Both the position numbers and the translations under genes were made by a program. This document shows positions 23,661 to 62,414 of a DNA stretch of 64,000 nt, piece by piece (position 1 is the first letter of the stretch; the number at the start of each line of letters is the position of its first letter). The stretch is taken from positions 11,389,241 to 11,453,240 of the forward strand of contig CM049318.1 of NCBI GenBank assembly GCA_026874595.1, in the 5' to 3' direction. The stretch is from Sipunculus nudus (taxonomy: Eukaryota > Annelida > Sipuncula > Golfingiida > Sipunculidae). The notes beneath the pieces are model-generated. The model made no database searches and was not told the DNA's origin. It saw only the letters and a list, made by a program, of their open reading frames with translations.

Positions 23661-24232
23661 TTAAACAGTATGTATAAAGAGAATTTAATCTTTTAAAATC
23701 TGAAATTTGAAAATAAATGCTCTAAAAATTTGGCTAGAAATTGAATTTTTATTTGGAGGCTCTATTGTATTCACTTTATTTGTCAAGCTCCAGGCAGCCC
23801 ACTTCTGTTCACTTCAACAGATTGCTCCATTTTTGGAGACAGCTTTATCATTTACTGTACTCTGTTGGCATCATCTATAATTGTATTTCCGTTATGACCA
23901 TTTATACGTCTATTTTAGGTAAATATCAGACATATCTCAGTAATGGTTTAAGCTATTGGTCTGACATATTGCTAGCCATAGATTATGGATAGGTTTATCA
24001 CATTCATAAGAAAGGTGGCACCACTGATAATCATTTTGTGTGCCTGCTCTTCTAATTCTTGTTTTCTTGCATCCATTACAAACGACACTTTTGGATCCTG
24101 AATTATCCTATTTCAGCCAATCTGAAGGGAAAGCATGTCACAGAAAATACCACATGTTTGAAGTGTGCACGGGGCAGGGGACTTTTTGTTCCTCTAGGCC
24201 CTTGTTAAATATTTGTTAGGAATCCCATAGCA

Positions 24233-27200
24233 TCTGTCAAGTCCTATCACCAGGTATGGGACTTCTTGTTAGGACATGTGTAGCATCTGTCAAGTCTTAT
24301 CACCAGGTATCGTGCCTTCTTGTTAGGACATGTGTAGCATCTGTCAAGTCCTATCACTAGGTGTGGGACTTCTTCTCAGGACATGTGAAGCATCTGTCAA
24401 ATCCTTTCACCAGGTATGGGACGTCTTGTTAGGACATGTGTAGCATCTGTCCAGTCCTATCACCAGGTATGGGACTTCTTGTTAGGACGTGTAGCATCTG
24501 TCAAGTCCTATCACCAGGTATGGGTCATCTTGTTAGGACAAGTGAAGCATCTGTCAAGTCCTATCACCAGGTATGGGACTTCTTGTTAGGACATGTGAAG
24601 CATCTGTCAAGTCTTATCACCAGGTATCGGACTTCTTGTTAGGACATGTGTAGCATCTGTCAAGTCCTATCACCAGGTATGGGACTTCTTGTTAGTACAT
24701 GTGTAGCATCTGTCAAGTCCAATCACCAGGTATGGGACTTCTTGTTAGGACATGTGTAGCATCTGTCAAGTCCTATCACCAGGTATGGGACTTCTTGTTA
24801 GGTCATGTGTAGCATCTGTCAAGTCGTATCACCAGGTATGGGACATCTTGTTAGGACATGTGAAGCATCTGTCAAGTCCTATCACCAGGTTTTAGACTTC
24901 TTGTTAGGACATGTGAATCATCTGTCAAGTCCTATCACCAGGTATGGGATTTCTTGTTAGGACATGTGAAGCATCTGTCAAGTCCTATCACCAGGTATGG
25001 GACTTCTTGTTAGGTTATGTGAAGCATTTAATAAGTCCTATTACCAGGTATGGGTCTTCTTGATAGGACATGTGTAGCATCTGTCAAGTCCTATCACCAG
25101 GTATGTGACTTCTTGTTAGGACATGTGAATCATCCGTCAAGTCCTATCACCAGTTATGGGACATCTTGTTAGGACATGTGAAGCATCTGTTAAGTCCTAT
25201 CACCAGGTATGGGACTTCTTGTTAGGACATTTGAAGCATCTGTCAAGTCCTATCACCAGGTATGGGACTTCTTGTTAGGACATGTGAAGCATTTGATAAG
25301 TCATATCACCAGGTATGGGACGTCTTGTTAGGACATGTGTAGCATCTGTCAAGTCCTATCACCAGATATGGGACTTCTTGTGAGGACATGTGAAGCATCT
25401 GTCATGTCCTCTCACCAGGTATGGGACTTCTTGTTAGGAAATGTGTAGCATCTGTCAAATCCTTTCACCAGGTATGGGACTTCTTGTTAGGACATGTGAA
25501 GCATCTGTCATGTCCTATCACAAGGTATGGGACTTCTTGTTAGGAAATGTGTAGCATCTGTCAAGTCATATCACCAGGTATGGGACTTCTTGTTTGGACA
25601 TGTGAAGCATCTGTCATGTCCTATCACCAGGTATGGGACTTCTTGTCAGGTCATGTGTAGCATCTGTCAAGTCGTATCACCAGGTATTGGACATCTTGTT
25701 AGGACATGTGAAGCATCTGTCAAGTCCTATCACCAGGTATGGGACTTCTTGTCAGGTCATGTGTAGCATCTGTCAAGTCGTATCACCAGGTATTGGACAT
25801 CTTGTTAGGACATGCGAAGCATCTGTTAAGTCCTATCACCTGGTTTGGGACTTCTTGTTAGGACATGTGAATCATCTGTCAAGTCCTATCACCAGGTATG
25901 GGAAATCTTGTTAGGACATGTGAAACATCTGTCAGGTCCTATCACCAGGTATGGGACATCTTGTTAGGACATGTGAAGCATCTGTCAAGTCCTATCACCA
26001 GGTATGGGACTTCTTGTTAGGACATGTGTAGCATCTGTCAGGTCCTATCACCAGGTATGGGACTTCTTGTTAGGACATGTGAAGCATCTGTCAAGTCCTA
26101 TCACCAGGTATGGGACTTCTTGTTAAGACATGTGAAGCATCTGTCAAGTCCTATCACCAGGTATGGGACTTCTTGTTAGGACATTTGAAGCATCTGTCAA
26201 GTCCTGTCACCAGGTATGGGACTTCTTGTTAGGACATGTGAAGCATCTGTAAAGTCCTGTCAACAGGTATGGGACTTCTTGTTAGGACATGTGAAGCATC
26301 TGTCAAGTCCTGTCAACAGGTATGGGACTTCTTGTTAGGACATGTGAAGCATCTGTGAAGTACTATCACCAGGTATGGGACTTCTTGTTAGGACATGTGA
26401 AGCATCTGTCAAGTCCTGTCACCAGGTACGAGACTTCTTGTTAGGACATGTGAAGCATCTGTCAAGTCCTATCACCAGGTTTTGGACTTCTTGTTAGGAC
26501 ATGTGAATCATCTGTCAAGTCCTATCACCAGGTATGGGACTTCTTGTTAGGACATGTGAAGCATTTGATAAGTCCTATCACCAGGTATGGGTCTTCTTGT
26601 TACGACATGTGTAGCATCTGTCAAGTCCTATCACCAGGTATGGGACTTCTTGTTAGGACATGTGAATCATCTGTCAGGTCCTATTACCAGGTATGGGACT
26701 TCTTGTTAGGACATGTGAAGCATCTGTCAAGTCCTTTCACCAGGTATGGGACTCATTGTTAGGACATGTGTAGCATCTGTCAAGTCCTATCACCAGGTAT
26801 GGGACTTCTTGTTAGTACATGTGTAGCATCTGTCAAGTCCTATCACCAGGTATGGGTCATCTTGTTAGGACATGTGAAGCATCTGTCAAGTCCTATCACC
26901 AGGTATGGGACTTCTTGTTAGGACATGTGAAGCATCTGTCAAGTCTTATCACCAGGTATCGGACTTCTTGTTAGGACATGTGTAGCATCTGTCAAGTCCT
27001 ATCAGCAGGCATGGGACTTCTTGTTAGTACATGTGTAGCATGTGTCAAGTCCAATCACCAGGTATGGGACTTCTTGTTAGGACATGTGTAGCATCTGTCA
27101 GGTCCTATCACCAGGTATGGGACTTCTTGTTAGGTCATGTGTAGCATCTGTCAAGTCGTATCACCAGGTATTGGACATCTTGTTAGGACATGTGTAGCAT

Positions 27201-30200
27201 CTGTCAAGTCCTATCACCAGGTATGGGACTTATTGTTAGGACATGTGTAGCATCTGTCAAGTCCTATCACCAGGTATGGGTCATCTTGTTTGGACATGTG
27301 AAGCATCTGTCAAGTCTTATCACCAAGTATCAGACTTCTTGTTAGGACATTTGTAGCATCTGTCAAGTCCTATCAGCAGGTATGGGACTTCTTGTAAGTA
27401 CATGTGTAGCATCTGTCAAGTCCAATCACCAGGTATGGGACTTCTTGTTAGGACATGTGAAGCATCTGTCAAGTCCTATCACCAGGTATGGGACTTCTTG
27501 TCAGGTCATGTGTAGCATCTGTCAAGTCGTATCACCAGGTATTGGACATCTTGTTAGGACATGTGAAGCATCTGTCAAGTCCTATCACCAGGTATGGGAC
27601 TTCTTGTCAGGTCATGTGTAGCATCTGTCAAGTCGTGTCACCAGGTATTGGACATCTTGTTAGGACATGCGAAGCATCTGTTAAGTCCTATCACCTGGTT
27701 TGGGACTTCTTGTTAGGACATGTGAATCATCTGTCAAGTCCTATCACCAGGTATGGGAAATCTTGTTAGGACATGTGAAACATCTGTCAGGTCCTATCAC
27801 CAGGTATGGGACATCTTGTTAGGACATGTGAAGCATCTGTCAAGTCCTATCACCAGGTATGGGACTTCTTGTTAGGACATGTGTAGCATCTGTCAGGTCC
27901 TATCACCAGGTATGAGACTTCTTGTTAGGACATGTGAAGCATCTGTCAAGTCCTATCACCAGGTATGGGACTTCTTGTTAAGACATGTGAAGCATCTGTC
28001 ATGTCCTATCACCAGGTATGGGACTTCTTGTTAGGACATTTGAAGCATCTGTCAAGTCCTGTCACCAGGTATGGGACTTCTTGTTAGGACATGTGAAGCA
28101 TCTGTCAATCCTGTCAACAGGTATGGGACTTCTTGTTAGGACATGTGAAGCATCTGTCAAGTCCTGTCAACAGGTATGGGACTTCTTGTTAGGACATGTG
28201 AAGCATCTGTGAAGTACTATCACCAGGTATGGGACTTCTTGTTAGGACATGTGAAGCATCTGTCAAGTCCTGTCACCAGGTACGAGTCTTCTTGTTAGGA
28301 CATGTGAAGCATCTGTCAAGTCCTATCACCAGGTTTTGGACTTCTTGTTAGGACATGTGAATCATCTGTCAAGTCCTATCACCAGGTATGGGACTTCTTG
28401 TTAGGACATGTGAAGCATTTGATAAGTCCTATCACCAGGTATGGGTCTTCTTGTTACGACATGTGTAGCATCTGTCAAGTCCTATCACCAGGTATGGGAC
28501 TTCTTGTTAGGACATGTGAATCATCTGTCAGGTCCTATTACCAGGTATGGGACTTCTTGTTAGGACATGTGAAGCATCTGTCAAGTCCTTTCACCAGGTA
28601 TGGGACTCATTGTTAGGACATGTGTAGCATCTGTCAAGTCCTACCACCAGGTATGGGACTTCTTGTTAGTACATGTGTAGCATCTGTCAAGTCCTATCAC
28701 CAGGTATGGGTCATCTTGTTAGGACATGTGAAGCATCTGTCAAGTCCTATCACCAGGTATGGGACTTCTTGTTAGGACATGTGAAGCATCTGTCAAGTCT
28801 TATCACCAGGTATCGGACTTCTTGTTAGGACATGTGTAGCATCTGTCAAGTCCTATCAGCAGGTATGGGACTTCTTGTTAGTACATGTGTAGCATCTGTC
28901 AAGTCCAATCACCAGGTATGGGACTTCTTGTTAGGACATGTGTAGCATCTGTCAGGTCCTATCACCAGGTATGGGACTTCTTGTTAGGTCATGTGTAGCA
29001 TCTGTCAAGTCGTATCACCAGGTATTGGACATCTTGTTAGGACATGTGTAGCATCTGTCAAGTCCTATCACCAGGTATGGGACTTATTGTTAGGACATGT
29101 GTAGCATCTGTCAAGTCCTATCACCAGGTATGGGTCATCTTGTTTGGACATGTGAAGCATCTGTCAAGTCTTATCACCAAGTATCAGACTTCTTGTTAGG
29201 ACATTTGTAGCATCTGTCAAGTCCTATCAGCAGGTATGGGACTTCTTGTAAGTACATGTGTAGCATCTGTCAAGTCCAATCACCAGGTATGGGACTTCTT
29301 GTTAGGACATGTGAAGCATCTGTCAAGTCCTATCACCAGGTATGGGACTTCTTGTCAGGTCATGTGTAGCATCTGTCAAGTCGTGTCACCAGGTATTGGA
29401 CATCTTGTTAGGACATGCGAAGCATCTGTTAAGTCCTATCACCTGGTTTGGGACTTCTTGTTAGGACATGTGAATCATCTGTCAAGTCCTATCACCAGGT
29501 ATGGGAAATCTTGTTAGGACATGTGAAGCATCTGTCAGGTCCTATCACCAGGTATGGGACATCTTGTTAGGACATGTGAAGCATCTGTCAAGTCCAATCA
29601 CCAGGTATGGGACTTCTTGTTAGTACATGTGTAGCATCTGTCAGGTCCTATCACCAGGTATGGGACTTCTTGTTAGGACATGTGAAGCATCTGTCAAGTC
29701 CTATCACCAGGTATGGGACTTCTTGTTAGGACATGTGAAGCATCTGTCAAGTCCTATCACCAGGTATGGGACTTCTTGTTAGGACATTTGAAGCATCTGT
29801 CAAGTCCTATCACCAGGTATGGGACTTCTTGTTAGGACATGTGAAGCATCTGTCAAGTCCTGTCAACAGGTATGGGACTTCTTGTTAGGACATGTGAAGC
29901 ATCTGTGAAGTACTGTCACCAAGTATGGGACTTCTTGTTAGGACATGTGAAGCATCTGTCAAGTCCTATCACCAGGTACAAGACTTCTTGTTAGGACATG
30001 TGAAGCATCTGTCAAGTCCTATCACCAGGTATGGGACTTCTTGCTAGGACATATGTAGCATCTGTCAAGTCCCATCACCAGGTATGGGACTTCTTGTTAG
30101 TACATGTGAAGCATCTGTCAAGTCCAATCACCAGGTATGGGACTTCTTGTTAGGACATGTGTAGCATCTGTCAAGTCCTATCACCAGGTATGGGACTTCT

Positions 30201-30262
30201 TGATAGGACATGTGAAGCATCTGTCAAGTCCTTTCACCAGGTATAGGATTTCCTGTTAGGAC
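24233..30262. repeat. 53-bp satellite array, about 114 copies, with higher-order structure
   Basis: Core unit of 53 bp containing GGGACTTCTTGTTAGGACAT, then GTGAAGCATCTGTCAAGTCC, then TATCACCAGGTAT. Copies differ by a few substitutions (gtgaag/gtgtag, ttagg/tcagg, tatgg/tattgg). A block of 35 units (1855 bp) is repeated almost exactly: positions from about 25620 to 27475 recur at +1855, and part recurs again after 29236 lacking two units. Because 53 is not a multiple of 3 and the unit carries a TAG, open frames never exceed about 95 codons, so it is not coding. It fills the gap between the two convergent genes. Confidence 0.97.
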
Positions 30263-30470
30263 ATCTGTAGAGTCATATAATCAGGAATGGGAGTTTTTAT
30301 TAGTACTCCTACAATATATGTATGTCCTATCAACTGTTATGAAAGTTCTTTTTGGGTCTCCTATAGCATCTGTCATGTCTTATTGTCATATAATGGAGTT
30401 CTTGTTTGAACTCTTATAGCATCTGTTATATCATCCTATAGCATTGTATCTGTGAAGTCTAGACAGGGCT
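30263..30470. repeat. Degenerate edge of the 53-bp array
   Basis: The core array fades into diverged partial units (AGCATCTGT and GGACATCTGT words, at irregular spacing). Old edge monomers escape homogenisation by unequal exchange. A shorter decayed edge is visible at 24190-24232. Confidence 0.7.
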
Positions 30471-34438: not shown

Positions 34439-37400
34439 CTGTGTATGAATATTCATTAACATAAATATTCATTAACAAAAATAATAAATACATAAATGAA
34501 AGAAATAAAATCTGCACTGAATTTTACAAAAGAATTGTGATTTTTTTCATACTGCACCATATTCTCATACATTTATTTGTAACAGAATAATTTTCATTCA
34601 TAAGCATTAACATAACAAGAGCCTTAAATATATCACTGATGTATGTAATGCCTCACAAACTTGATATGACTGATTGTTAGCATCAGAATGACCTGACAGT
34701 AGTCATTCAGAGAAGCTCAGCAGTCAGCGTTACATACTGACCTTGGTTTTGAACTCTTCATCCTTGATACTATTCAGGTTTATCTGGACGTTATAGTATG
34801 CTCCCCACACGCCTGTCTCCAGGCTACGTGCACCCATCTACAAAATAACATAAACAAATATCAACTTAACCACACCCAACACTGTGACATTATAGTACGC
34901 TCCCCACACGCCTGTCTCCAGGTGACGAGAACCCATCTACAAAATAACAAAATCAAATATCAATCTAACCATACTCAACACTGTGACATTAGAGTATGCT
35001 CCAAACATGCTAGTCTCCAGGCTACGAGCACCCATCTACAAAATAACAAAATCAAATATCAATTTAACCACACCTTTAACTGTGACATTATAGTGCTCTC
35101 ATCACAAGCCTGGCCCAACAGCATTATAACTGGACCACATTTGTCACAGTAGTGCAAGAATTATATAAATTATCTTGTTAACTGCTGGTCTGAAGTGGTA
35201 TGCACACAAAATAATATGCTGCTCTGTATGAATATCTTTATACAGCCTTTTCCCATTGAAACTTAAATAAGCATTTATATTTTGGGTTATCTGCCACAGA
35301 TGATAACAGAATGTGACACCTTTTAATAGATGTGTAGTTTAAAGAAACAATCAGGAACAGGCCTGCATTCCACTTTCTTCTGTTCTGGTTAGGAGCCATT
35401 CATGAGCATACATAATATTTTCTACTGGACTTACTTTTACAAACAGCCAATAAGGAACATGTGCACAAGTTGCCTCCTAGCATACTGTTGTACAATATCA
35501 TGAATTACAATGCCATGACCATCAAAAGCCTACCAAAAAGGCACTGCTTCAAGAGCTCCTACAAACGTCCTACAGATTTCACTTACCTGTATGTCTGACT
35601 TGCAGTTGGGGTTGCCCACCCGAGCTAGTTCTTGGAGAGTAGGCCAGATGGCATTAGCTGTCATGGCAACCCTCATAGGGACAGAAATAGCAGTTCTTAG
35701 ACACTGCTGCATGGCCTGGTCCCTCCTGTATATAGATAATCCATGTATCAGTGTGATTCAATGGTTTCATATTTATTAAGCTTCAGGGTGGCTGCACCCT
35801 TAAGTAATTTACAGAAGGGCCAACAAAAATACTTGGCTGTTAAATTTACCACCTTGAAGAGAATGGTACAAAATTGTAATTTAATAGTAATAATGCTATT
35901 GGCCAATCAGAGGCAGTCAAGTATGGTAGAGTCCCTACACTGGATATTACTTTGTGAACAGTCAGATTTGTCAATACTCTAACAAGGTCTGAGTATTAAG
36001 TCTATGCTGTTTACCCATAATGTTTGATTGTTCAGTAAAACAACGCCTTGTTCAGCGGCCAAAATTCTTGCTCTGGTGCATTCCTTAGTCAAATGGCTCC
36101 CACTCATCAGTCAGTAGATAACTCTTTTGTTTTTGTATGTTTGAACAGTTGTAAACAATTTTCTTCATTTTAATAAATGACATATTATACAATATATCAA
36201 TTTATTATGTTGTGATTTGTTGGGCACTGAAATAAAATATAGCATATGACCTGGATAAGTATCAATATATTCAAGTCTTCAACAACACGGGCTGTTTTGA
36301 TAACAGAACATACAACATATACCACTGGCTACTGTTCATTACAAAATATGTCATCTTCATCTGAAATATTATTAAAAGAACATGTCCTTTTTATAACATA
36401 CAGTTCACCACCGGTGATAAGATATCTAACACAGTATAGGACTGAATCTATATATTTCTATGAAAAGAATTACATGTAATTACTCTAATACAACAGGTTG
36501 TCTATTATAAAAATGATCATGGGCTTTGGTTTCTCAGAAAACAGGAGGGGGCTATTCCAAGAAATATCATCAGAAGCAATATCACCGTAAGTTTTCAATG
36601 AATTTCAGCGACTTAATGTAAAATGTCAGAATAATGGTTGATAAAACTATAAGGTGGGTCTGGAGGCAGATACAAGTTTTGGCAGACATATGCACTCTTG
36701 TTTTTTTTCTAGTTTCACATGTATTGATGTGGTAAGTTATGATGATTTAAAATATATAACATGAGAACAAAAATAATGGCTACATAAGACTTGTTTGTAC
36801 TCACATTTTCTCTTCATCTGGGTCCTTGTGGCTCATCTTGACAGTTTTCTGAAGAAAAATAAACAATCCATATCTAGCTGTATGACAAAATATGACCTCA
36901 GAGGTATCAAGTTGGGTGACATCATATGATACATGTTGGTATCTATTTGTGTGACATGTATAATCTGTGTTGGTATCTATTTGTGTGACATGACATGATC
37001 TGTGTTGGTATCTTTTTGAGTGACATGACATGATCTGTGTTGGTATCTATTTGTGTGACATGACATGATCTGTGTTGGTATCTATTTGTGTGACATGTAT
37101 AATCTGTGTTGGTATCTATTTGTGTGACATGACATGATCTGTGTTGGTATCTATTTGTGTGACATGATATGATCTATGCTGGAATCTATTTGTATGACAA
37201 GATTTAATCTGTGTTCGTATCTATTTGTGTGACAAAATATGACCTTAATGGTATCTATTTGAGTGACATGATATGATCTAAGCTGGTATCTATTTATGTT
37301 ACATAAAATGATCTGTGAAGGATTCTATTTCTGTGACATGCCATCATCTCTACTGGTATATAACTGTGATTTATGATATGATTTGTAATGATATTAAGCA

Positions 37401-46400: not shown

Positions 46401-49400
46401 AGTTTTTTGTAGCTGTCAGTATGATACAGGCACTGATGACCCCCCGAACAAAATAGGCTGATGCAGGTGGTGCGACCAACACCTCAATTTCAGATATGAC
46501 TCATGTGACCAATGTTGGCATAAAATTTGGTGATGATAGCTCCAGCCGTTTCTGAGATTGTAATTTTAGTATGCTTTTTTGGACAGATGACTAAGTTCAA
46601 CTTCCTGTAACTCGGCCAAAAATCACTGAACTCAAACCATTCAAACAAACTTGAGAGAAATTGTTCAAGGAATCATTTATGTGAAATATTGGACAATTTT
46701 GCTGAACAGTTTCTGAGAAGAAGATTTTTAAAGGTTTTTTAGCTTTTTCCCTATAAAATCTAAGATTTTTTTAGACGACTAATTTTTTGCATAAAATTTA
46801 ATGATGCTAACTCCTGCCGTTTTCAAGATAGTATGGGTTAACGTACAGAGGAAGGACGATGGCGGACAGACAACAGACGACGGGCAATGCCACACCATCA
46901 CATAAGCTCACAGGTTTGCTAAAAATTAAAGGAATAACATAGCAAATCTTCTATATGAAAATGTCTAAGCTGAGCCAGAGAGGTAAATTTATGCTCTCTT
47001 TTCACACTTGTATATCAGCTTGTGGCTCCCCCTACCTTTGCATCTTTGACAACCTCTTCGTAGACACGGTGGATTGGGGTGACATCGTGGTCTACGATGT
47101 TCGCAGACACTTGAGCCATATTGGCCTCCTCCAGGTACCAGCCTATGGCCTGTACCTTCTGGAGACGACCAGGCTGAAGCAAAGTGATCCATTAGTGACA
47201 ATGTTCAGAACTATACAGATTATTTTACAGAGTTTGCTGTTATGGTTCCATTTCGTTACTTATTGTTAATTGTTAAAATAAAAGGACACACTGAATATAA
47301 TTATATTATTGTCATTGTATTATGCATGCACTTTTGGTACTATGGGTCTGAGGCCTTACATTTTCTTAATATAAACATTCATTTATTAAAGTTAACAAAA
47401 ATTATTTAAATAATCTTTTAGAATTTTCAATATATTTTATTTTAAATTTATTTTTGTTCCATGACTGTATGCCTTTATCACTAGGCTTTAACCTAAAATA
47501 ACAGAAGTGATATCTCATGCAATAAGGAGTCACAATTCTTGAGTGTTGGAGGATGACAGAGAATATGGCTCAGTCTTACTAAATTGCTACTTCAAGTGAA
47601 GAGCCTAAATTCTTGAAGATGTCTTTAGCCAGAAATATGCTCAGTAAAGAGAAATTTTAATCAGTCAAAGGTATGGGGGAAAAAGGTGAAAAAAGTATGA
47701 TATTTGTAAAAGTAACAATTGGTAGCAATACCACTTGATCTTAACTTGAATATCTTTTCATTTACAGAGAGATATGAGCTGTATCCAGACTGAAAAGGTC
47801 CCAATGTAGCAATTGTACAATTTTCTGGCACACCCTTACACTTACCTCATCTTTGCCGCGTCCCTGCTCGCGAACATTGAGAGCGATGCGGTGAGCTTGT
47901 TCTTTTGTGGAGAGCATGTTGATGTTGTACGCTACAAGGAACTTGCGAGCACCAACCATTGTGGCCCCCCACACTGGTACAAACTCTGGTGGCCCAAAGT
48001 CAGGCTTCCACTCTTCCTTACCGAGCTAGGAGTAAAATATAAACCTCTATAGTATATACATATTTTTTGGTATTCAATAACACAGCAACAGGGTGCTGTA
48101 TGTAACATTCAGTATTTTTTTTGGCAAGTGTTTGGAAAAATCTGACACAAACACATTCTAGAACAATTTTCCTTTTTCCTATTAATTCTGTTATTGTCAG
48201 TATTGTATCTGCAGATTTGCAATGCTCTCAGTAACATACATCAATCATGGTCTGATTTCATTATCATTATTATTTCCACTTTTTTTTATTTACATAATAA
48301 GTAAACATCATGATATTAAACAGCTTGTCATTCTGTTAACCTATCCTCCCCACTGGTAAGGAATAATAAATATTAATCTACAAAAGATTTGGGGCTGAAA
48401 ACTGAATTTTCAATTGATACTGATCATGAATATGGGATCTACCAAAATAACTGAATATGGAAACTACATTGCCCTTCTCCCTACATTTATGCCTATGCTG
48501 CTGGTATATTTAGGGATTTATTTACCCACAATCCCTAACTAACAGATGTACTCTTATGAGTATGTTTCTGTACAATCTGTCCATTAACAGCAGAGACATG
48601 GAGGGGGCTGGTGGTTTTTACCTTCTCCATCAGTCCTTCATACTCCCCGGCCCTGATCTGAGGAACGGTCTTCCTGTGTTCATCCTCAGCAGCCTCTCCA
48701 TACAAGTACACTACAATCAAAGGTCAAGGTCAGGAGAAGTCAGGTCAACAAAGGTCAAGGTCACTTGTGATGGAAATGTTTGCTATGACCTCTAACATTT
48801 ATACCAAGAAGTTTATTTATCTAAGAATCTTGTGTGTTCAACAGGTTTCAACAGAATCACAATGGTAAAATTTGAAGTGGATCAGAAAGTATCTCTATTT
48901 GCTAATGTACAAGCAAGGTAATACTGCCCTGGTATATGAGCTAAGTCATGAGTACAAAGACATGGGACCAGAGAGCAGAGTTCCTTACAGTGTTCAGTGG
49001 GGAGTAATCTTAATAGTCAGCTGGATAAATAGACACAGGATAATTGTCTGGTTAACTGAGCAAAAAAGTCTGCTTGTTTGGGCAATGACAGGAATAAATA
49101 CATTTTCTTTAATAGAAGACTTGATTGTACATGATTAAATGAAAGCAAGGTTAATGATTTATTAGAAATACACCAGTGAAGATCATTGACAGCAATACTG
49201 TCTACTGTTTAACAGAATGGCACGTCTAGGTCAGTGCCCAAAGTATATATGTATACACTGTTCAAACAATGTGGGGTACCTGGAATTCCAAACTCAATGG
49301 CAAGTCTTTCTGCAAATTCCTTGGCACAATCCACACAGTCCTCCATGGAAACGCCCTTGACTGGTATAAAAGGACACACGTCAATGGCTCCAAGACGTGG

Positions 49401-52400
49401 ATGTTCACCTGTAGTACAAAACACAAATATGTCAGCTGTTTGTCTGATTAATAAACTACTCTTATAAATCATCTGGGTGAACTCAGCATAAAAATACATC
49501 AGTAGTTATATGTTACTGCTGTTAAATATTGATATGTTCTTATTTTCTCACATTTGGCATCATGTGTAATATAAATGTGTACCAGGAAATGATAAAAGAA
49601 ACTCAATCTAAGCAAATGCAGGGATCAGGTATTAAATGTTTTTTGAAAGACATCCAGTTTGCTTTCAGTCATATCAATGACATCTATGTCCTGTGTTTAT
49701 TCATATCAATGACTTCTGTGTTTAGTCATATAAATGAGGCTCATCTACTTCTGAGTTTAGTCATTTGTATATATGTATATTCGGTCCATTGACCCAAGTG
49801 TTTAGTTATATCAAGGAGCTCCACCTAACTCTTGTGTTTGGTCATATCATGAGGTCCACCTCCCTCTGTGCTAGGTCATATCAATGAGGTCCACCTACCT
49901 CAGTGCTTGGTCATATCAATGAGGTTCACCTACCTCTGTGCTAGGTCATATCAATGAGGTTCACCTACCTCAGTGCTTGGTCATATCAATGAGGTTCACC
50001 TACCTCTTGTGTTTGGTCATATCAATGAGGTCCACCTACCTCTGTGCTTGGTCATATCAATGAGGTCCACCTACCTCAGTGCTTGGTCATATCAATGAGG
50101 TTCACCTACCTCTGTGATAGGTCATATCAATGAGGTTCACCTACCTCAGTGCTTGGTCATATCAATGAGGTCCACTTACCTCTGTGCTTGGTCATATCAA
50201 TGAGGTCCACCTACCTCAGTGCTTGGTCATATCAATGAGGTTCACCTACCTCTGTGCTAGGTCATATCAATGAGGTTCACCTACCTCTGTGCTTGATCAT
50301 ATCAATGAGGTCCACCTACCTCTGTGTTAGGTCATATCAATGAGGTTCACCTACCTCAGTGCTTGGTCATATCAATAAGGTTCACCTACCTCTTGTGTTT
50401 GGTCATATCATGAGGTCCACCTCCCTCTGTGCTTGGTCATATCAATGAGGTCCACCTACCTCTGTGCTTGGTCATATCAATGAGGTTCACCTACCTCTGT
50501 GCTTGGTCATATCAATGAGGTTCACCTACCTCTGTGCTTGATCATATCAATGAGGTTCACCTACCTCTGTGCTAGGTCATATCAATGAGGTTCACCTCCC
50601 TCTGTGCTTGATCATATCAAGGAGGTCCACCTACCTCTTGTGTTTGGTCATATCATGAGGTCCACCTCCCTCTGTGCTTGGTCATATCAATGAGGTTCAC
50701 CTACCTCAGTGCTTGGTCATATCAATGAGGTTCACCTACCTCTGTGCTAGGTCATATCAATGAGGTTCACCTACCTCTATGCTAGGTCATATCAATGAGG
50801 TTCACCTACCTCTGTGCTTGATCATATCAATGAGGTCCACCTACCTCTGTGCTAGGTCATATCAATGAGGTCCACCTACCTCTGTGCTTGATCATATCAA
50901 TGAGGTCCACCTACCTCTGTGCTAGGTCATATCAATGAGGTCCACCTACCTCTGTGCTTGATCATGTCAATGAGGTCCACCTACCTCTGTGCTAGGTCAT
51001 ATCAATGAGGTCCACCTACCTCTGTGCTTGATCATATCAATGAGGTCCACCTACCTCTGTGCTAGGTCATATCAATGAGGTTCACCTACCTCTTTGCTTG
51101 ATCATATCAATGAGGTCCACCTACCTCTGTGCTAGGTCATATCAATGAGGTCCACCTACCTCTGTGCTTGATCATGTCAATGAGGTCCACCTACCCCTGT
51201 GCTTGGTCATATCAATGAGGTCCACCTACCTCTGTGCTTGTTCATATCAATGAGGTCCACCTACCTCTGTACTTGGTCATACCAATGAGCCACCTACCTC
51301 TGTACTTGGTCATATCAATGAGGTCCACCTACCTCTGTACTTGGTCATATGAATGAGGTCCACCTACCTCTGTACTTGGTCATATCAATGAGGTCCACCT
51401 ACCTCTGTACTTGGTCATATGAATGAGGTCCACCTACCTCTGTACTTGGTCATATCAATGAGGTCCATCTACCTCTGTGTTTGGTCATATCAATGAGGTC
51501 CACCTACCCCTGTGCTTGGTCATATCAATGAGGTCCACCTACCTCTGTGCTTGGTCATATCAATGAGGTCCACCTACCTCTGTGCTTGGTCATATCAATG
51601 AGGTCCACCTACCCCTGTGCTTTGTCATATCAATGAGGTCCACCTACCCCTGTGCTTGGTCATATCAATGAGGTCCACCTACCTCTGTGCTTGGTCATAT
51701 CAATGAGGTCCACCTACTTCTGTACTTGGTCATATCAATGAGGTCCATCTACCTCTGTGTTTGGTCATATCAATGAGGTCCACCTACCCCTGTGCTTGGT
51801 CATATCAATGAGGTCCACCTACCTCTGTGCTTGGTCATATCAATGAGGTCCACCTACCTCTGTGCTTGGTCATATCAATGAGGTCCACCTACCCCTGTGC
51901 TTGGTCATATCAATGAGGTCCATCTACCTCTGTGTTTGGTCATATCAATGAGGTCCACCTACCCCTGTGCTTGGTCATATCAATGAGGTCCACCTACCTC
52001 TGTGCTTGGTCATATCAATGAGGTCCACCTACTTCTGTACTTGGTCATATCAATGAGGTCCATCTACCTCTGTGTTTGGTCATATCAATGAGGTCCACCT
52101 ACCCCTGTGCTTGGTCATATCAATGAGGTCCACCTACCTCTGTGCTTGGTCATATCAATGAGGTCCACCTACCTCTGTGCTTGGTCATATCAATGAGGTC
52201 CACCTACCTCTGTACTTGGTCATATCAATGAGGTCCATCTACCTCTGTGTTTGGTCATATCAATGAGGTCCACCTACCCCTGTGCTTGGTCATATCAATG
52301 AGGTCCACCTACCTCTGTGCTTGGTCATATCAATGAGGTCCACCTACCTCTGTGCTTGGTCATATCAATGAGGTCCACCTACCCCTGTGCTTGGTCATAT

Positions 52401-55400
52401 CAATGAGGTCCACCTACCTCTGTGCTTGGTCATATCAATGAGGTCCACCTACTTCTGTTCTTGGTCATATCAATGAGGTCCATCTACCTCTGTGTTTGGT
52501 CATATCAATGAGGTCCACCTACCCCTGTGCTTGGTCATATCAATGAGGTCCCCCTACCTCTGTGCTTGGTCATATCAATGAGGTCGCCCTACCTCTGTAC
52601 TTGGTCATATAAATGAGGTCCACCTACCTCTGTGCTTGGTCATATCAATGAGGTCCACCTACCTCTGTGCTTGGTCATATCAATGAGGTCCACCTACCTC
52701 TGTGCTTGTTTATATCAATGAGGTCCACCTACCTCTGTGCTTGGTCATATCAATGAGGTCCACCTACCTCTGTGCTTGTTCATATCAATGAGGTCCACCT
52801 ACCTCTGTGCTTGGTCATATCAATGAGGTCCACCTACCTCTGTGCTTGGTCATATCAATGAGGTCAACCTACCTCTGTGCTTGTTTATATCAATGAGGTC
52901 CACCTACCTCTGTGCTTGGTCATATCAATGAGGTCTACCTACCTCTGTGCTTGGTCATATCAATGAGGTTCACCTACCTCTGTGCTTGGTCATATCAATG
53001 AGGTCCACCGACCTCTGTGCTTGGTCATATCAATGAGGTCCACCTACCTCAGTGCTTGGTCATATCAATGAGGTCCACCTACCTCTGTGCTTGGTCATAT
53101 CAATGAGATTCCAGGCAGCCCTGGCACCGTTCATCGCTCCCTCTATCACAGCCTCAGGGGGTCCAACAAAAGTGTACACAGTCCGGTTGGTGGACGGGCC
53201 GGGGTCCACATCCAAAAGGTTGACATCCTCTGTGCTGGCGATGGCATTGGCGATCGCTTCAATCACCTAGAGACCAAACATTAACAGATTGTTCAGTAGG
53301 AAACAGGGAGATACATTTATAAAACTTGTTTATATATACCCATCAGTTATATATATACAAATGTTATCAAATATAGGAAAATATAGGATATTCATATCTG
53401 AATGCTGAAAAATACATGAAGTTATAGGAGACAATTTTAACATAGGAATATATGAGGCAGCATGAGCCCTGGATTATAAACACCCACACTGGCACTTTAC
53501 ACTTTGATTAAGGTCTTAAACATCAGTATGCTTAAATGCTGATCAAATCACTTTGTCCATAACTCTACTGTACATAAACTGTTGCCCTGGGACAACTTTT
53601 CATGTTCATATTCTGCTATAAATATTTCCTAAAATGTGGTATTTAAAAAAAGGAGAATTCCAAAACCGGTTTGATATTTTAAAGATTAAAAACAAATTTA
53701 TTTTATATTTTACATTTTTTATTTATAATTTTAACTTTAATTTAAGTTTACATCAATATTTTCATTCATTCCTTCTTCTATTCAATACGCAAATGTAGAG
53801 ATGTAAACCTATGCTAAGAAAAGCATATTTTATTTCTGACAATATTTGATGGGGGAACCTTTTATAGGTGACCACTGAAAAAAATTCAAGTACATTTGAA
53901 AAATAAATATCGTATATAATAAAATTGTTGAAGGTTAACACCCCTAAAAAAAATACATCGGGGGGGGGGGGGGGGGGGTTTACTGCAATTTTTTACATGT
54001 TGCATTTAGGTGTTCTGTTTGCTGGAATAAATGATTTTAGTCAATTAATTGACATATATCAAAATCTAACATATCCATAAACTAGATTTAAAAGGAAAAT
54101 AACAGCTAAAATAAGATGTCCGTATCATGTGGTCACAGAGCAGTCGTTATATAGTATAGTCATATATTCAAGATAGAGAGGGAGCAACACAAGGCTGATG
54201 CTGCTCATTATCTGATACAGCCAGTCTTAGACAGGCATATAGTAATCATAAAAACTAAAACAATGCCTACACATGCTTGTGTAACAGTCATTCAGACACA
54301 CAGAGGACGAAACATTTCTGATGGCATTCTGTAAATATGAACACTTCTGATATTACATACAGCAGTACTAATATTTCACAGACTCAATCAAAAACCAGAG
54401 TGTGCACATCATATCACTCGAACTCACAATCAATACATACAACATATGACACGAAGGTCTGGTGACCCTTTGGCGACCTGAGGTAGACAGGTACAGGCTT
54501 TCTGCCTCGTCAGAAAGCACCGACTTTAAATCAAAATCAGGTACATGTATTAAGTCTTTGTAGGACTGAATGAGGTATGAGAATTTCTGTCTGCCAGTAA
54601 CCTCAGGTCCTCAACAGCAATGTTTGCTCAGTAAACTGTGATCACCAGCAGCACAGATCAATACGTCGTGGTTGTAGGTTTGTTACAGTATACTGTATGA
54701 CCAGGCTGCCAGCACTGTAGAAAAGGTATGTTACCATCAATAAGCTCAACTTCATAGCTACTTGACCCCTGTGTGATATATCTTATTCTGTGTTGATGGA
54801 TTTGTCAGTGTTCTACAATACTTGTCTCATGTCACGGCTGGGACCTAGAGTTAACGGTCCACCTTGACTGCCAGACAGAACCATTAAACCAGCTCTGTCT
54901 TTAATACTGATGCCTTTTATCTTTGACTTCAGCACTGTCTACAACATTTCTGCCTGTGTCATAAGTTTTTCCAATTTTGCCATTGACATTAGGACTTTCC
55001 TAGTTACGTCTGTGACATAAGGTGTTTCATAGTTATACCTGTGATATTAGGATTTTCCTAGTTATGCCTGTGTAATTAGATTTTTCCTAGTTACGTCTGT
55101 AACATCAATGTTTCATACGGTTATATCTGTGACATTAGGTTTTTCCTAGTTACATCTGTGACATTAGGTTTTTCCTAGTTACATCTGTGACATAAGTGTT
55201 TCATAGTTATATCTGTGACATGTTTCATAGTTATATCTGTGACATTAGGTGTTCATAGTTATATCTGTGACATTATGTTTTCCTGGTTATGTCTGTGACA
55301 CAAGGTTTTTCCTAGTTTTGTCTGTGACATTTATAATTGGTTTTCCACATTATGGAAGACCATGATATATCTTTTAGACCAAGGATGATCTTTACATTAC

Positions 55401-58400
55401 TAAAGGAATCAGGTTGTCTGATTAAGAAAAGTCAGGTCTTGGGCAGCTCTCTCGTTTAATTAAGACTGCAAAAACAATTACACTTGTCACATAGAGCTAT
55501 ATTAATCTGTAACAAGTTTTTTTATACCTTTCTTTAATATTTGTTATTTTTAATATTTTGCATTAAATTGTCTGAGCAATTTTTTTTCTCTTGGATCAAA
55601 ATGAAAATTAAATTATTTCATTGTACAAAAATAGACACAATTTCCCAATTCTTCTTAACTGAAAACAATGGGAGAAAACAAAATTGACATTTCATGTTTC
55701 AATCCCATTTAAACCTGCCAATGAAGATGTAAAACATTACCTCCCAAAACCTGTGATACCAATTAATTCTGGTGAATATTTATTTCAATACCTGACTAGA
55801 TATAAAATACCATCATGATCTGACTATATATCAGATATCCTCATGTTCTTAGAAGATATCAGATATCATCAACAGCTGACTTGATATAAGATACCTTCTT
55901 GATCCAGAAGACTAGATATCAGATACCATCAAATTCTGACTAGATATAGGATATCCCAGGTCATGATCTGACTAGATATCATATAAAATTTTAATTATGA
56001 TCTGACTAGATAGCTGATATCCTCAAAATTTGACTGGATTTCATATATCCCTATGATTTGACCAGATATCAGATATCCTCAAGTTCTGACAAGATATCAG
56101 TTATTCTCAAGATTGGACTAGATACCTGTTTCCTCAAGAATTGACTAGATAACAGATATCCTCAAGTTCTGACTAGATATCAGATATCCTCAAGATCGGA
56201 CTAGATATAAGATATTCTCAAGATCCGACTGGATACCTGATATGATCAAGATCTGACTATATCAGATATCCTCAAGTTCTGACCTGATATCAGATATCCT
56301 AAAGTTCTGACTTAATATCAGTTATCCTCAAGATCTGACAAAATATCAGATATTCTCAAGATCAGACTGGATACCTGATATGATCAAGATCTGACTAGAT
56401 ATCAGATATCCTCACATTCTGACTAGATATCAGATATCCTCATGTTCTGACTAGATATCAGATATCCTCATGTTCTGACTAGATATAAGATATTCTCAAG
56501 ATCTGACTGAATACCTGATATGATCAAGATCTGACTAGATATCAGATATCCTCAAGTTCTGACCAGATATCAGGTATCCTCCAGATCTGACAAGATATCA
56601 GATATCCTCCAGATCTGACAAGATATCAGATATTCTCAAGATCTGACTAGATATCAGTTATTCTCAAGATCTGACTAGATATCAGATATCCTAAAGTTCT
56701 GACTTGATATCAGATATCCTCCAGATCTGACAAGATATCAGATATTCTCAAGATCTGACTAGATGCCAGTTATTCTCAAGATCTGACTAGATAGCTGATA
56801 TCCTTAAGATCTGACTAGATAACAGATATCAACACAATCTAACCACAGATAAGATACAATCATGACCTGACAAGAATTCATCATAATATGCTTAGATAAT
56901 AGATATCATCATGATCTGGCTCATTTTCAGATATCATCATGATCTTACCAGATATCAGATGTCTTCACAATCAGACTACAAATCATATATCATGATGACC
57001 TGACCAGATATAAGATACCATCATGATCTGACTAAATTTCATATATTACCATGATCTTACCAGACACTGGATATCAGATATCATCATGGTCTGTTCAACA
57101 CAAATAAAACCATCTTGACTAAACTTCAAATAACTTAAATCTCAGTCACATTAACCGGTGTGCAATGTCACAGTAACACTGGATAAGGCTGACAAAGGTG
57201 TTCATGTTATTCAGGTTTGCTAATAAAGAACATAGCCTCTTTTTTGCTAAAAAAAAAAGTCTGTATTCAGAACCACATTACACTACCATGACATCATGAC
57301 CAAAGCTGGAGAGATATCAAACACACAGGGAGCTATTTCCGTGAACCAGTAAACATCACTTACCTGATTAACTACTCCATTAAATCTAATACACTTTATT
57401 CTCTTCTACTCCTCCCAGCTCACCAACTACAAAACCACAACCTTAGGCCTTAGTAATCATCACCCGCAGAAAGCAACGCCACTGTGTCGGGTAAGTGCAT
57501 CTGATACTGTGATTGTATGTATATATTTGCATCTGGACAGGTAGCTTGTAATACTACAAAGGGTGCCCAGAGTCCTTCTTTATTTAGGTGATATGGGGGT
57601 TATAAGCAAGTTATATAACATTTTGGGTAGGTGAGGGCTCCAGCACTCACTGCAACTATTTATGGGTTGGCTTGAAGTAAACATTACTTGACATGGTGTT
57701 TGAAAACTTTAGTAAAATCTACAAATTTTGATCAATTCTTTTCAAATTTCAGATTTAAAAGAAAATATTATGCTGTGAAAATTAAATCAACAGTGCACAC
57801 AGGAGAAAACAGCTTGTACCTTATTGTCACCAGAAAATCGGTGACAATATGTACGGTGTTTTGTATCATAGTTTAACGAAGTCTGTTCTCTATTGATATT
57901 GATGTGAAGCGTCATCCTAAAGCGTTGACAGGTCTGGATTGTATATATATTGTGTATTCTTGTATGAAATCCCATCGGCTATCAGCTGATTTATCTGTGT
58001 CAAGCATTGCGTGTATTACATCTGGTATGTGGGTTGCCATGGTGATGCTAGCAGTCATACTAGATCACATATATCCTTATATGGGACACTTGAGCCATAA
58101 GCCAATCAGAGAACCGGATCGCCGTACACAGTGCACAGGCGATTGTGATGTCAGAGTTCAGGGAGAGACGCGGGACGCTGCTTCAGTTGGGTCTTGAAGC
58201 TTGAAGAGGCAGCACGCATGCACGGCAGAAAGAACATTGAAACGCTTAAACCCGCCAGGAACGGCATAGAAGCAAGCTTCTACATGAGGCAAGGGTCAAG
58301 CTCACGAGATCACAGCCGTGCTGCCGACAGAGCATCGTATTGGCAGTAAAGTAAGTGCACACGCGTCACCTGCCGGCCTAGTTCAGCTTGACCTAGATAC

Positions 58401-61400
58401 ATAATCGCTGTAAGCCGTGAAACAATTGCTACACCAGTAAGGTCAAGGACTCTAAGCTCATATGTAAACAAAGAGAGCTATTACCATTCATGTGAACGTA
58501 AACCTACCCGGGTCGCTGTCAAGCAAGATCGGTTGAAGATTGCTAAACTCAGAAAGACTATATGGTACTAACCATACGCTAGATTCTACACAAAACAGTA
58601 ACCAGAGATCTCTGAAGGAACTGGACTTTATTGTTTTTATACAAACCATGGACTCAGTAAATATCCTGTATTTTTAATGTGAAGGACTGTCGTATTGACA
58701 CATCAACGCACACACACTCACATCTATGTCTCTGTATGTATTGTCTTGAATTATATTTGTGAATTTAACCTGATGTCTCGTAGTTTCTATTGATCTGGGT
58801 GTATGATTGTCTGGTATTTTTATACACGTCCTTAAAAGATCCTGGAAATGTCACCTGTAATGACCGGGATCTAATTTCCTGATTAGTGAAATCAAATGGC
58901 GAGTGTAAACCCATCCTATTGTTTTATAGGATATATCCATTGTAAAGTTATCACGTTAAGTCAGGGGTGACACTTATGAACAGTATACTGTTGCTCTGGA
59001 ACAACTCGCATTCTTGGAGCACGGTGGCGTATGGTTAAGGGCAAGGGACTTGTGACCGCAAGGTTATGGATTTGCGCCCCGTTCTGACCACTGTCCAAGC
59101 TAAAACTTCTAGGCAAAGTCCTTAATACCAGGGGACGCATTCGTCCCTTGAGTGAATTGGTACTGGTCTTTGGGGGATGGCTATGTAGAACAAATAACTA
59201 ACCAGCGCCTGATATGGCTGCTTGGGTTGTATGTTAGCCAGGGAACAGAGAAAAGCTACAAGAATGAACAAGCCAGAAAGACCATGAAGGCAAAGTGTAA
59301 ACTATTAAGTCAGATGAGACTGACATCGTCAATGATATCAGACTATAAAACCCCCACCTTTACCTTTAATGTTCTTCCCTGCTCACATTCCTCAGACAGA
59401 GCAGAAAGTCATCATGTCCAAGGAATGTTCCACACTGAACCAGAGGCATCAGGTTGCCAATAGGTTTTTCAATATGGTTCAAGCTCGTTTTCATGAAATC
59501 CTTATTAGAGCAAAAGATGGCACGTCAGACAGAATTAAGCCAAGACCCAGACAGTCATAGAAACACAAGGAAACGCATAAAGTGACTGTAGGGAGACACA
59601 GATACTGCAGATGGTGTGGGGTTGTTTTGTTTTTTATTCCTGCACCACAAACAGTCTTCATCTAGTTGTTGTCAGATATAGTTTGTGGAAGAGTATTAAT
59701 GCACTTAAGGGTGTCTGTTACACAGTGACGAGACCTAATGAACATTCAATGTTATACCTTTACAGGCAATTGATACCTCAGCTGGTAATTATGGTTTAAA
59801 TGCTTTTCTGGGGGCTTAAAATAAATACTAGAGGAAAATATAGAGTTTACTGAACTGAAACTGCTTGAATGCTTTTAGATCTATGGATCAACAAGAACCA
59901 GATCTATAAAAAAAAAGAAAAACAAACCTGGGGTACCTGCTGGTGTGCCTAAGTTAATCAACGACATAAATAAGCAGGCTCGAAATACACTTGGCAGGAT
60001 TAGGTATTTTCCAACTATACCAACACTGAAAGTAATAACATGACTGCAGAATTATATTTAGATCAAATATCTCATTTATATTATTTGGATAACAAAATTT
60101 AATATTCTGTGGAAGTGGTTAATCCGGCATGTCTGAATTTTCATGCTTTTTTAATAAACTGCATTAGTGCAGTTTGTATTTTCGCGCAAATCAGTATGTT
60201 AGGTAATTCATTTTGTATCAAATTTTTTAAAATATCTATGAAAGACAGGTTTGTAGTGCAAACCTAACAACCTCCGGGTGACTGCATACATGCCATGGAT
60301 GACTGATTAATTATCACGACCGCAAGGTGTAAGCAACTCGTACTGCACCCAGCCACATTGTTGACATCTGAGTAAGTTGTAGAAAGCTCAACAACAACAA
60401 CTGTGATTACTTACCAGAAGCGGCCAGCTATGTGTGAACAACAAACAGAGCTGACAACAATCCCATCTCATTCTCAGCTCCGTCGTAGGCCTACTTCAAA
60501 GCCATTGGGAGGGGGGTTCTAAAGTTCTTGAAAGACTACTTGTTAATCACAGTTGTTTCCACATATCGCTATATATGGGAGGTGATCTCAGCTGAGATAT
60601 CAATTGCTATAACAGTAACATCATATTTGAAGTAGTCTCAACTCATGCGACTCGGCAAGGAGAGATTACCAGACCCATATGACTGTGTAAGGCAAAAATG
60701 CTGCAATCTTCTGAATGATTGGATCAAAATAATGCTTGTTCTTAATTAAGCGCAAATCTAGCTCCCACATAAACCCTGCCATATTATAAACAAAACCACT
60801 CAACCATTATATTCTTATACCAATAATTGACTAGAGCTACTGGCACAACTTCTAAAAACTGAACATACTAATGCCAATAAACCAAATGGATAAACGTCTG
60901 AAAAATTAGATTACAGCATTAACTAGAAGTTTGGGACTATGAAGGTCCTCCATTAGGGCCCCATTATTCACCAGTTCCTAAAAATGGTCATCATGGGCAC
61001 TACCTCCACATGAGTTCAATCATCTGTCACTCATTTAGTGATTCAAGGCCAGGCAATCCCTCTACATGAAACACATGAGTTAAATCATCTGTCACTCAGT
61101 CAGTGATTCAGGGACAGGCAATCCTTCCACATGAATCACAGGAGTTTAATCATCTGTCACTCAGTCAGTGATAAAGGGCTAGGCACTCCCTCCACATAAA
61201 GCAAAGGAGTTAAATCATCTGTCACTCAGTCAGTGAGTCAGGGCCAGGCAATCCCTCCACAAGAAGCACAGGAGTTAAATCATCTGTCACTCCGTCAGTG
61301 ATTCAGGGCCAGGAAATCCCTTCACATGAAGCACAGGAGTTAAATCATCTGTCACACAGTCAGTGATTCAGGTCCAGGCACTCCCTCCACATGAAGCACA

Positions 61401-62414
61401 GGAGTTTAATCATCTGTCACTCAGTCAGTGATACAGGGCCAGGCACTCCCTCCACAAGAAGCACAGGAGTTAAATCATCTGTCACTCAGTCAGTGATACA
61501 GGGCCAGGCACTCCCTCCACAAGAAGCACAGGAGTTAAATCATCTGTCACTCAGTCAGTGATTCAGGGCCAGGCAATCCCTCCACATGAAGCCCAGGAGT
61601 TTAATCATCTGTCACTCCGTCAGTGAGTAAGGGCCAGGCAATCCCTCAACATGAAGCACAGGAGTTAAATCATCTGTCACTCAGTCAGTGATTCAGGGCC
61701 AGGCTAGCCAATAAGAATGAACTCCTCAATTGCCTTTTTTTCAGTGACTGACGCAATGTGGAGTCCATAGATTGTACCTGCAGTTAACTGTGATTATAAC
61801 ACTCCATACAAAACTGTGAGATATAACATATATCCATTGATTAATTTTCAGTACATCTATGTGTATTGTATATTTGACCACTAGAAAACATTACTGTTCT
61901 GTTCTCAGCCCTATTTTGCACCAAGGAAGTTAAAATATGAACATAATAGTACACAGGCCTAAAGCCTTATACAGGACTGCCACCGAATGCAAGATGTCTA
62001 CCGGGGATGTTAATGCTTCTATTCTCTCTGGACAAATAATATCAGTTGTGGATGTTACAGGTGCTTCATGCTTTCCAGAATGGTTATTTTTTATTACAGA
62101 CCTTTCGACATACAACATTATGTGAACATTGGTTTGTTGAAACCATAGGAAATATTTTTATTCAATTTTCTTTCTAAGAGTAACAGATCGTATTGTGCTA
62201 TAACCCCAGTTAGCCCTTTGGTGGGCCGGCGACGCAACAGAAACCTGAAACCCGTTGCATCGCCGTCAGCGGCAAGGGCCAGGCAATCCCTCCACAGTTT
62301 ATAGTATGTAAACCTTTTGGTTTTGTCCAAATATGTGATAGTTTGTTACTGTAAAATGGCACAAGGATTTATTGGTACTGCACATTCTTCTATAATTTTA
62401 GAGAACTGATTGAA

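Follow-up and report, generated by a model that had tools for sequence, protein, structure and literature searches.

We noted that intron 2 of the FTCD gene, in a 64,000-nt window of genomic DNA (the whole stretch analysed; contig C13, 11389241 to 11453240, of a 1.43-Gb assembly in 153 contigs), consists largely of tandem copies of the gene's own exon 2/intron 2 junction. The true 5' splice site (donor) stands in the first copy and is followed by 93 decoys, one fewer than the number of copies because copy 1 lies partly in the exon. We propose, with a probability of about 0.8, that the array is a minisatellite of the type known from lancelets as a mirage, which arose by tandem duplication across the donor, was multiplied, and is tolerated through exon definition. 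The features of the locus are as follows (window positions; a slash marks a splice junction).

34739 to 63217, minus strand: FTCD gene, 12 coding pieces by homology, stop-free once trimmed to the homologous part.
53083 to 53266, minus strand: FTCD exon 2, 184 nt; its final 25 bases (53083-53107) form the exonic portion of copy 1.
53077 to 53085, minus strand: true 5' splice site of exon 2, GAG/GTAGGT, cut between 53083 and 53082.
49409 to 53082, minus strand: FTCD intron 2, 3674 nt.
49819 to 53107, minus strand: donor-junction array, 94 tandem 35-bp units of the exon 2/intron 2 junction, copy 1 overlapping the exon.
49668 to 49818, minus strand: array tail, one degenerate unit (49818-49784) and then diverged remnants to about 49668.
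49290 to 49408, minus strand: start of FTCD exon 3, with its acceptor AG at 49410-49409; the 3' limit was not set.

The coding pieces of FTCD were located by tblastn using an approximate human FTCD query sequence. A Pfam search returned an FTCD_N match at the locus, and the translation of exon 2 was homologous to pig and rat FTCD (1QD1, E = 1.8e-20; 1TT9, E = 7.2e-19). The homologous protein is continuous across exons 2 and 3 only if the donor of copy 1 is used. The introns flanking exon 2 are about 9.9 kb and about 3.7 kb long, the exon 1 donor being placed only approximately.

Tandem Repeats Finder (TRF) reported a 35-bp unit in 94.3 copies at 49808-53107 with 93% matches. When the units were cut by script, outward from the exon, 94 clean units were obtained between 53107 and 49819. 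Unit 1 corresponds exactly to the 25 terminal bases of exon 2 followed by the 10 intron bases GTAGGTGGAC, and copy 2 abuts the true donor copy with no gap. Exon 2 is the founder of the array. Readthrough past the exon was found by translation to meet a stop in copy 2. These results bear out a first-pass annotation of the window, which had described an array of the FTCD exon 2/intron 2 junction in the correct register, number, and place, with exon 2 as founder, no gap after the true donor, and a premature stop on readthrough. Clean copies account for 3264 nt (89%) of intron 2 and leave 410 nt free of them. The units are on average 96.0% identical to the exon copy; GT is retained in 89 of 94, and, with copy 1 included in both counts, 65 of 94 carry GAGGTAGGT exactly and 66 of 94 have a donor score at least equal to that of the true donor, i.e., 65 of the 93 decoys (Shapiro-Senapathy matrix). 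A 70-base query spanning two units gave 40 matches, all within the array; since the search scored one candidate place and skipped very common words, it does not prove that the unit is absent elsewhere. A dispersed satellite was considered as a source of the repeat and is not supported, the unit having turned up only in the FTCD array in this search that scored one place.

Further inspection of the units revealed an internal order. Differences per unit rose from 0.71 in copies 1 to 14 to 1.17 in copies 15 to 55 and 1.87 in copies 56 to 94, and divergence increased with distance from the exon (Spearman 0.41, p=4e-5), the least diverged copies being those that adjoin the constrained exon. The 93 decoys represent 38 distinct haplotypes arranged in ordered blocks. 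Unit identity was highest at lags 9 and 5 within units 15 to 55 and at lag 2 within units 56 to 94; the margins were small, and the block structure is plainer in the unit list than in the lag identities. Both the higher-order blocks and the gradient of divergence are consistent with an array that grew by slippage or unequal exchange. At the start, a short stretch spanning the exon 2 donor would have been duplicated in tandem, which set a second exon end plus donor directly behind the first, an arrangement visible in the sequence; slippage or unequal exchange may then have multiplied the unit to 94 copies. Coding constraint acts on copy 1 only, the remaining copies being intron.

How the decoys could be tolerated is suggested by published minigene work. 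Where flanking introns exceed about 200 to 250 nt, competing donors tend to resolve to the one nearest the exon's own acceptor, and in five minigenes with identical strong donors and 365-nt flanking introns the upstream donor was used exclusively (PMC9225289). Exon 2 of FTCD would likewise be recognized as a unit, with the donor nearest its own acceptor, that of copy 1, being used; the decoys would survive because both flanking introns are long. On the acceptor side, the same proximity rule would pick the last copy. The first-pass annotation argued that the first copy has to be chosen in splicing; this is sound as reasoning, and the exon-centric proximity mechanism (PMC9225289) offers a way in which it could happen. 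For FTCD output, the array is most probably close to neutral. Several points weigh against this interpretation. Weakening the identical donors in the same minigenes caused the larger exons to be skipped (PMC9225289), and by the classical in vitro rule (Reed and Maniatis, cited in PMC9225289) it is the downstream donor that is preferred where introns are short. When the array was born, intron 2 may have measured no more than about 0.3 to 0.4 kb, which is near the 200- to 250-nt switch point. Finally, the evidence for neutrality comes from one array, that of FTCD.

That evidence is the pattern of change within the decoys. Across the 93 decoys, changes were found in 29 of the 744 cells of donor columns -2 to +6 and in 98 of the 2511 cells of the remaining 27 columns, which is 3.9% in each case. 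When the donor block was shifted circularly, 19 of 35 shifts gave an equal or lower value. With the 38 haplotypes counted once each, the donor columns were changed in 13 of 304 cells versus 62 of 1026 elsewhere. The decoy donors of the FTCD array show neither clear preservation nor removal.

Both kinds of boundary are repeated in FTCD, as shown by the donor array at exon 2 together with a second, shorter array.

34787 to 35112, minus strand: acceptor-junction array, 99 bp by 3.3 copies, on the acceptor of the exon at 34837 (called exon 13).

It comprises three copies of TTTTGTAG/ATGGGTGC or close variants, of which the last is the real exon, as the proximity rule would have it. Use of either of the two decoy acceptors, which lie upstream of the real one, would lead to an in-frame TAG. 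In intron 1 we observed three more minisatellites (54984-57046 and 61007-61704, with units of 28 to 29 bp and 65 bp), which touch no FTCD exon found in the analysis. By TRF the window holds eight tandem arrays with at least 3 copies and a period of 20 to 75. Another array, of 53 bp by 114 copies on the plus strand (24229-30264), carries CACCAG/GTATGG in each unit and was examined as a candidate junction array; no exon was seen by eye at its upstream edge, and it was set aside. No known RNA family was found in the window at gathering thresholds.

Arrays of this kind are recurrent in what is a minisatellite-rich genome, and several with the anatomy of the FTCD array were seen. The whole genome was searched for three AGGTRAGT motifs spaced by 15 to 45 bases, with the reversed motif as a control. 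From the matches listed, all donor arrays on contigs C1 and C2 to 69.8 Mb (about 181 Mb) were taken, 19 in number; 3 kb was cut at the 5' edge of each, and the translations were read (the cuts of L007 and L010 held only 74 and 105 bases upstream of the array). An exon was called from a codon score of at least 8.2 (the 95% point of 358 AGGT sites in the window) or a Pfam match with E<0.01. By these fixed criteria, 10 of the 19 arrays among the matches listed start from an exon and have its donor as their first copy. A looser judgment by eye put 13 of 19 at an exon, a figure for which single AGGTRAGT sites elsewhere were given no equivalent fixed count. The exons were assigned as follows; searches of the PDB were made with array exons only and stand outside the exon-call counts.

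ABCC2-like exon: homology match and Pfam ABC_membrane, 3.8e-5.
Axonemal dynein heavy chain exon: homology match and Pfam, 7.8e-5.
PKA regulatory subunit RI exon: homology match and Pfam, 0.0013.
HADH exon: homology match and Pfam, 1.5e-5.
Aquaporin exon: Pfam MIP, 6.6e-10.
Pyridoxal-dependent decarboxylase exon: Pfam, 5.6e-5.
PH domain exon, weak: PDB, 8.3e-4; Pfam, 0.016.
L009, L015, and L017: codon score alone; L009 had no PDB match, and a weak G-gamma match of L017 (0.0085) was left out of the Pfam support, L017 passing on its codon score.
L003, L005, and L021: exonic by eye only.

The donor of copy 1 departs from the search motif in some arrays (GTCAGT in L007, GTTAGT in L014, and GGGTGAGT in L020). 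More than half of the unit was exon in 10 of 11 strict arrays, FTCD included (p=0.012). With three weaker arrays added the figure was 11 of 14 (p=0.057); L003 and L021 came out at zero here, probably owing to length differences in their first copies. The exon-rich units may be due to chance. As the 19 arrays were selected for intact donors, they cannot test donor decay.

On the acceptor side, arrays of the motif TTTNCAGR showed no excess, with 5580 matches versus 5626 for the control. Two of the nine acceptor-motif arrays among the matches listed on C1 to 3.1 Mb ended at an exon by eye. One of these, L065, is a 51-bp array (C1:1625544-1636379, about 10.8 kb as listed) whose unit contains TTTACAG/GGCTGAGTGGGAGC and whose last copy continues into the exon-like sequence RAEWEHRFWNPKDPEDCVDQ, which by eye makes it an acceptor-side counterpart. 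Neither L065 nor the other, L067, had credible Pfam support (best E=0.1), and L065 also had no PDB match.

A rival explanation is that splice junctions are hot spots for tandem duplication, with donors founding arrays more often than equal sequences elsewhere. As a control we chose 40 single AGGTRAGT sites by an unrelated GATCA downstream and applied the same exon criteria. They came from the 50 listed places that lay outside a single dispersed repeat family, after omission of one near-duplicate and of the final nine places. The family in question, marked by the stretch AGGTAAGTATCGTAAGAGGTGTGACAGTAGATCA and close variants on many chromosomes, supplied 50 of the 100 matches listed. The codon score was run on all 19 arrays and 40 single sites; each array was credited with the highest score among one to three GT sites of copy 1, and each single site with the score of its one GT. 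Pfam was given peptides picked by eye, which came from 15 of the 19 array loci and from 15 of the 40 single sites. Exon ends were found at 11 of 40 single sites versus 10 of 19 arrays (odds ratio, 2.9; p=0.08). The codon score by itself gave 7 of 19 versus 10 of 40 (p=0.37), and Pfam by itself gave 6 of 19 versus 4 of 40 (p=0.06). At p=0.08, enrichment of donors as array founders is not shown, and the strong enrichment that we had considered is not established.

Beyond the odds ratio, two further observations lean toward the hot-spot explanation. Donor-motif triplets gave 1733 matches in the whole genome versus 1048 for the reversed motif, and the base at -3 was C in 11, A in 5, G in 2, and mixed A/C in 1 of the 19 arrays, versus C in 14, A in 14, G in 7, and T in 5 of the 40 single sites. 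However, match counts are weighted by array length, so that more matches need not mean more arrays; indeed, the first 7.6 Mb of C1, counted by rows, held four reversed-motif arrays and one donor-motif array. The acceptor motif, with no excess over its control, argues in the same direction, as do the p values above. We consider hot spots in this sense unlikely. The share of arrays that start at a genuine donor may still be somewhat higher than the share of single motif sites that are genuine donors, though the two may also be equal. In a comparison that counts the best segment per edge only, the best coding-like segment reached the array at none of the eight edges of four reversed-motif arrays and, for the donor arrays, at 7 of 19 upstream edges. 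The pattern as a whole is consistent with a minisatellite-rich genome that does not purge every junction-spanning array. A broader proposal is that junction-founded arrays are common in this genome (some 80 of the strict AGGTRAGT kind, extrapolated from 10 in about 181 Mb), carry up to about 100 full-strength decoys beside housekeeping exons, and reflect junctions that are mildly favored for tandem duplication; we offer it tentatively and would ourselves lean against it as a whole.

The first-pass annotation had also suggested that decoy use could tune FTCD output with array length. The array would then be a regulatory device, in which decoy donors divert a share of FTCD pre-mRNA to transcripts with an early stop. 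The strength of the donors, of which 66 of 94 (copy 1 included) match or beat the score of the true one, and the stop met on readthrough in the next copy would both suit such a device. However, the donor columns change at the background rate, being no more conserved than the rest of the unit, which leaves a regulatory role without support. Arrays of the same anatomy stand at unrelated genes, and the exon share of donor arrays is not clearly above that of single sites (10/19 versus 11/40, p=0.08). We regard tuning of FTCD by its array as very unlikely.

Nor did the suggestion that the array soaks up U1 small nuclear ribonucleoprotein (snRNP) find support. As a U1 binding platform, the array would recruit U1 and shield the intron from premature polyadenylation, or else titrate U1. 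The donor GAGGTAGGT, which is that of the true site and of the common decoy, is predicted to pair with the U1 5' end at -10.1 kcal/mol, versus -11.8 kcal/mol for the consensus CAG/GTAAGT, and is in this respect suited to the role. The donor columns are nonetheless unconstrained, and same-anatomy arrays occur on unrelated genes. As to titration, a single kind of pre-mRNA could hardly exhaust a snRNP as abundant as U1. A U1 function of either sort is highly improbable. That the array as such is a product of over-expansion or misplacement in assembly is scarcely credible, although its copy number may carry an assembly error. A lancelet mirage has been aberrantly assembled in a draft genome (PMC3087553), but the FTCD decoys comprise 38 distinct haplotypes in ordered blocks with a divergence gradient, and more arrays of the same kind lie elsewhere in the assembly.

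Most studies of splice-site choice set two sites against each other, and FTCD offers 93 decoys. Because these share sequence and local context with the true donor and 65 of them score as well or better, little besides location with respect to the exon remains to tell the true donor apart. Such genes represent an extreme case for the exon-proximity rule. If junction-founded arrays are common, they would form a natural library on how exon definition chooses among identical donors or acceptors according to their number and distance. Judging from the FTCD array, exon edges appear to tolerate tandem duplication, and splicing appears able to disregard exact decoys. On the assumption that the array accounts for the added sequence, intron 2 has grown about ninefold, from 410 to 3674 nt.

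Separately, we observed bacterial sequence in other contigs of the assembly. A COX1 search gave 11 matches, and the three loci that were read (L079, L080, and L081, on C60, C61, and C123) were all bacterial. Nine near-equal COX1 matches lay on eight contigs of C60 to C89, and the two of these that were read were both of the aa3 type; a cbb3-type oxidase was found on C123 (112 kb). The bacterial contigs within the host assembly possibly represent symbionts.

Several known systems resemble the FTCD array in part. In intron gain by AGGT tandem duplication (the Rogers model, cited in PMC3087553; PMC4974935), a gene stretch bearing splice signals is duplicated, as in FTCD; in that model an exon gains a new intron, whereas in FTCD the intron was already there and has become longer, with the exon left as it was. 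Human intronic variable-number tandem repeats (VNTRs) that affect splicing, e.g., that of ABCA7 (PMC5954066), likewise are tandem repeats within an intron. The ABCA7 VNTR has a splicing effect and, unlike the FTCD array, is not known to derive from the gene's own donor junction. Two further reports may be related: exon 4 duplications that are absent from the transcript of earthworm metallothionein (PMC12783039) and, in humans, tandem repeats located at exon-intron boundaries, from which new introns may arise (PMC2812944).

The closest relatives are the mirages of lancelets, minisatellite-like units that span an exon/intron boundary, described for Adh3 and the globins BflGb6 and BflGb9 (PMC3087553) and also listed for globin, Adh, troponin C, and PGBD5 (PMC3902484). 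Globin reverse transcription-PCR and Adh3 data suggest that regular splicing is undisturbed by them (PMC3087553). The FTCD array shares their tandem, boundary-spanning units, with many copies keeping AG or GT. Its head-to-tail units of minisatellite size (35 bp by 94) span a boundary of the host gene, splice signals are kept by many but not all copies (GT in 89 of 94), and within FTCD both 5' and 3' boundaries are affected, as they are among lancelet mirages. The 35-bp unit falls within the 10- to 72-bp range of the Adh3 mirages; the array is far longer, at 94 units in the one haplotype assembled versus 6 and 3 in two BflGb6 haplotypes. The host, which is probably a protostome, is not a lancelet, since its genome gave 15 separate strong innexin matches (264 to 380 bits) and lancelets have one innexin (PMC8769644). 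A narrow literature search found no report of mirages outside lancelets, and the array suggests that they are not peculiar to that group. The kind of element is thus already described, in the lancelet mirages; what is new is the lineage and the apparent number of arrays.

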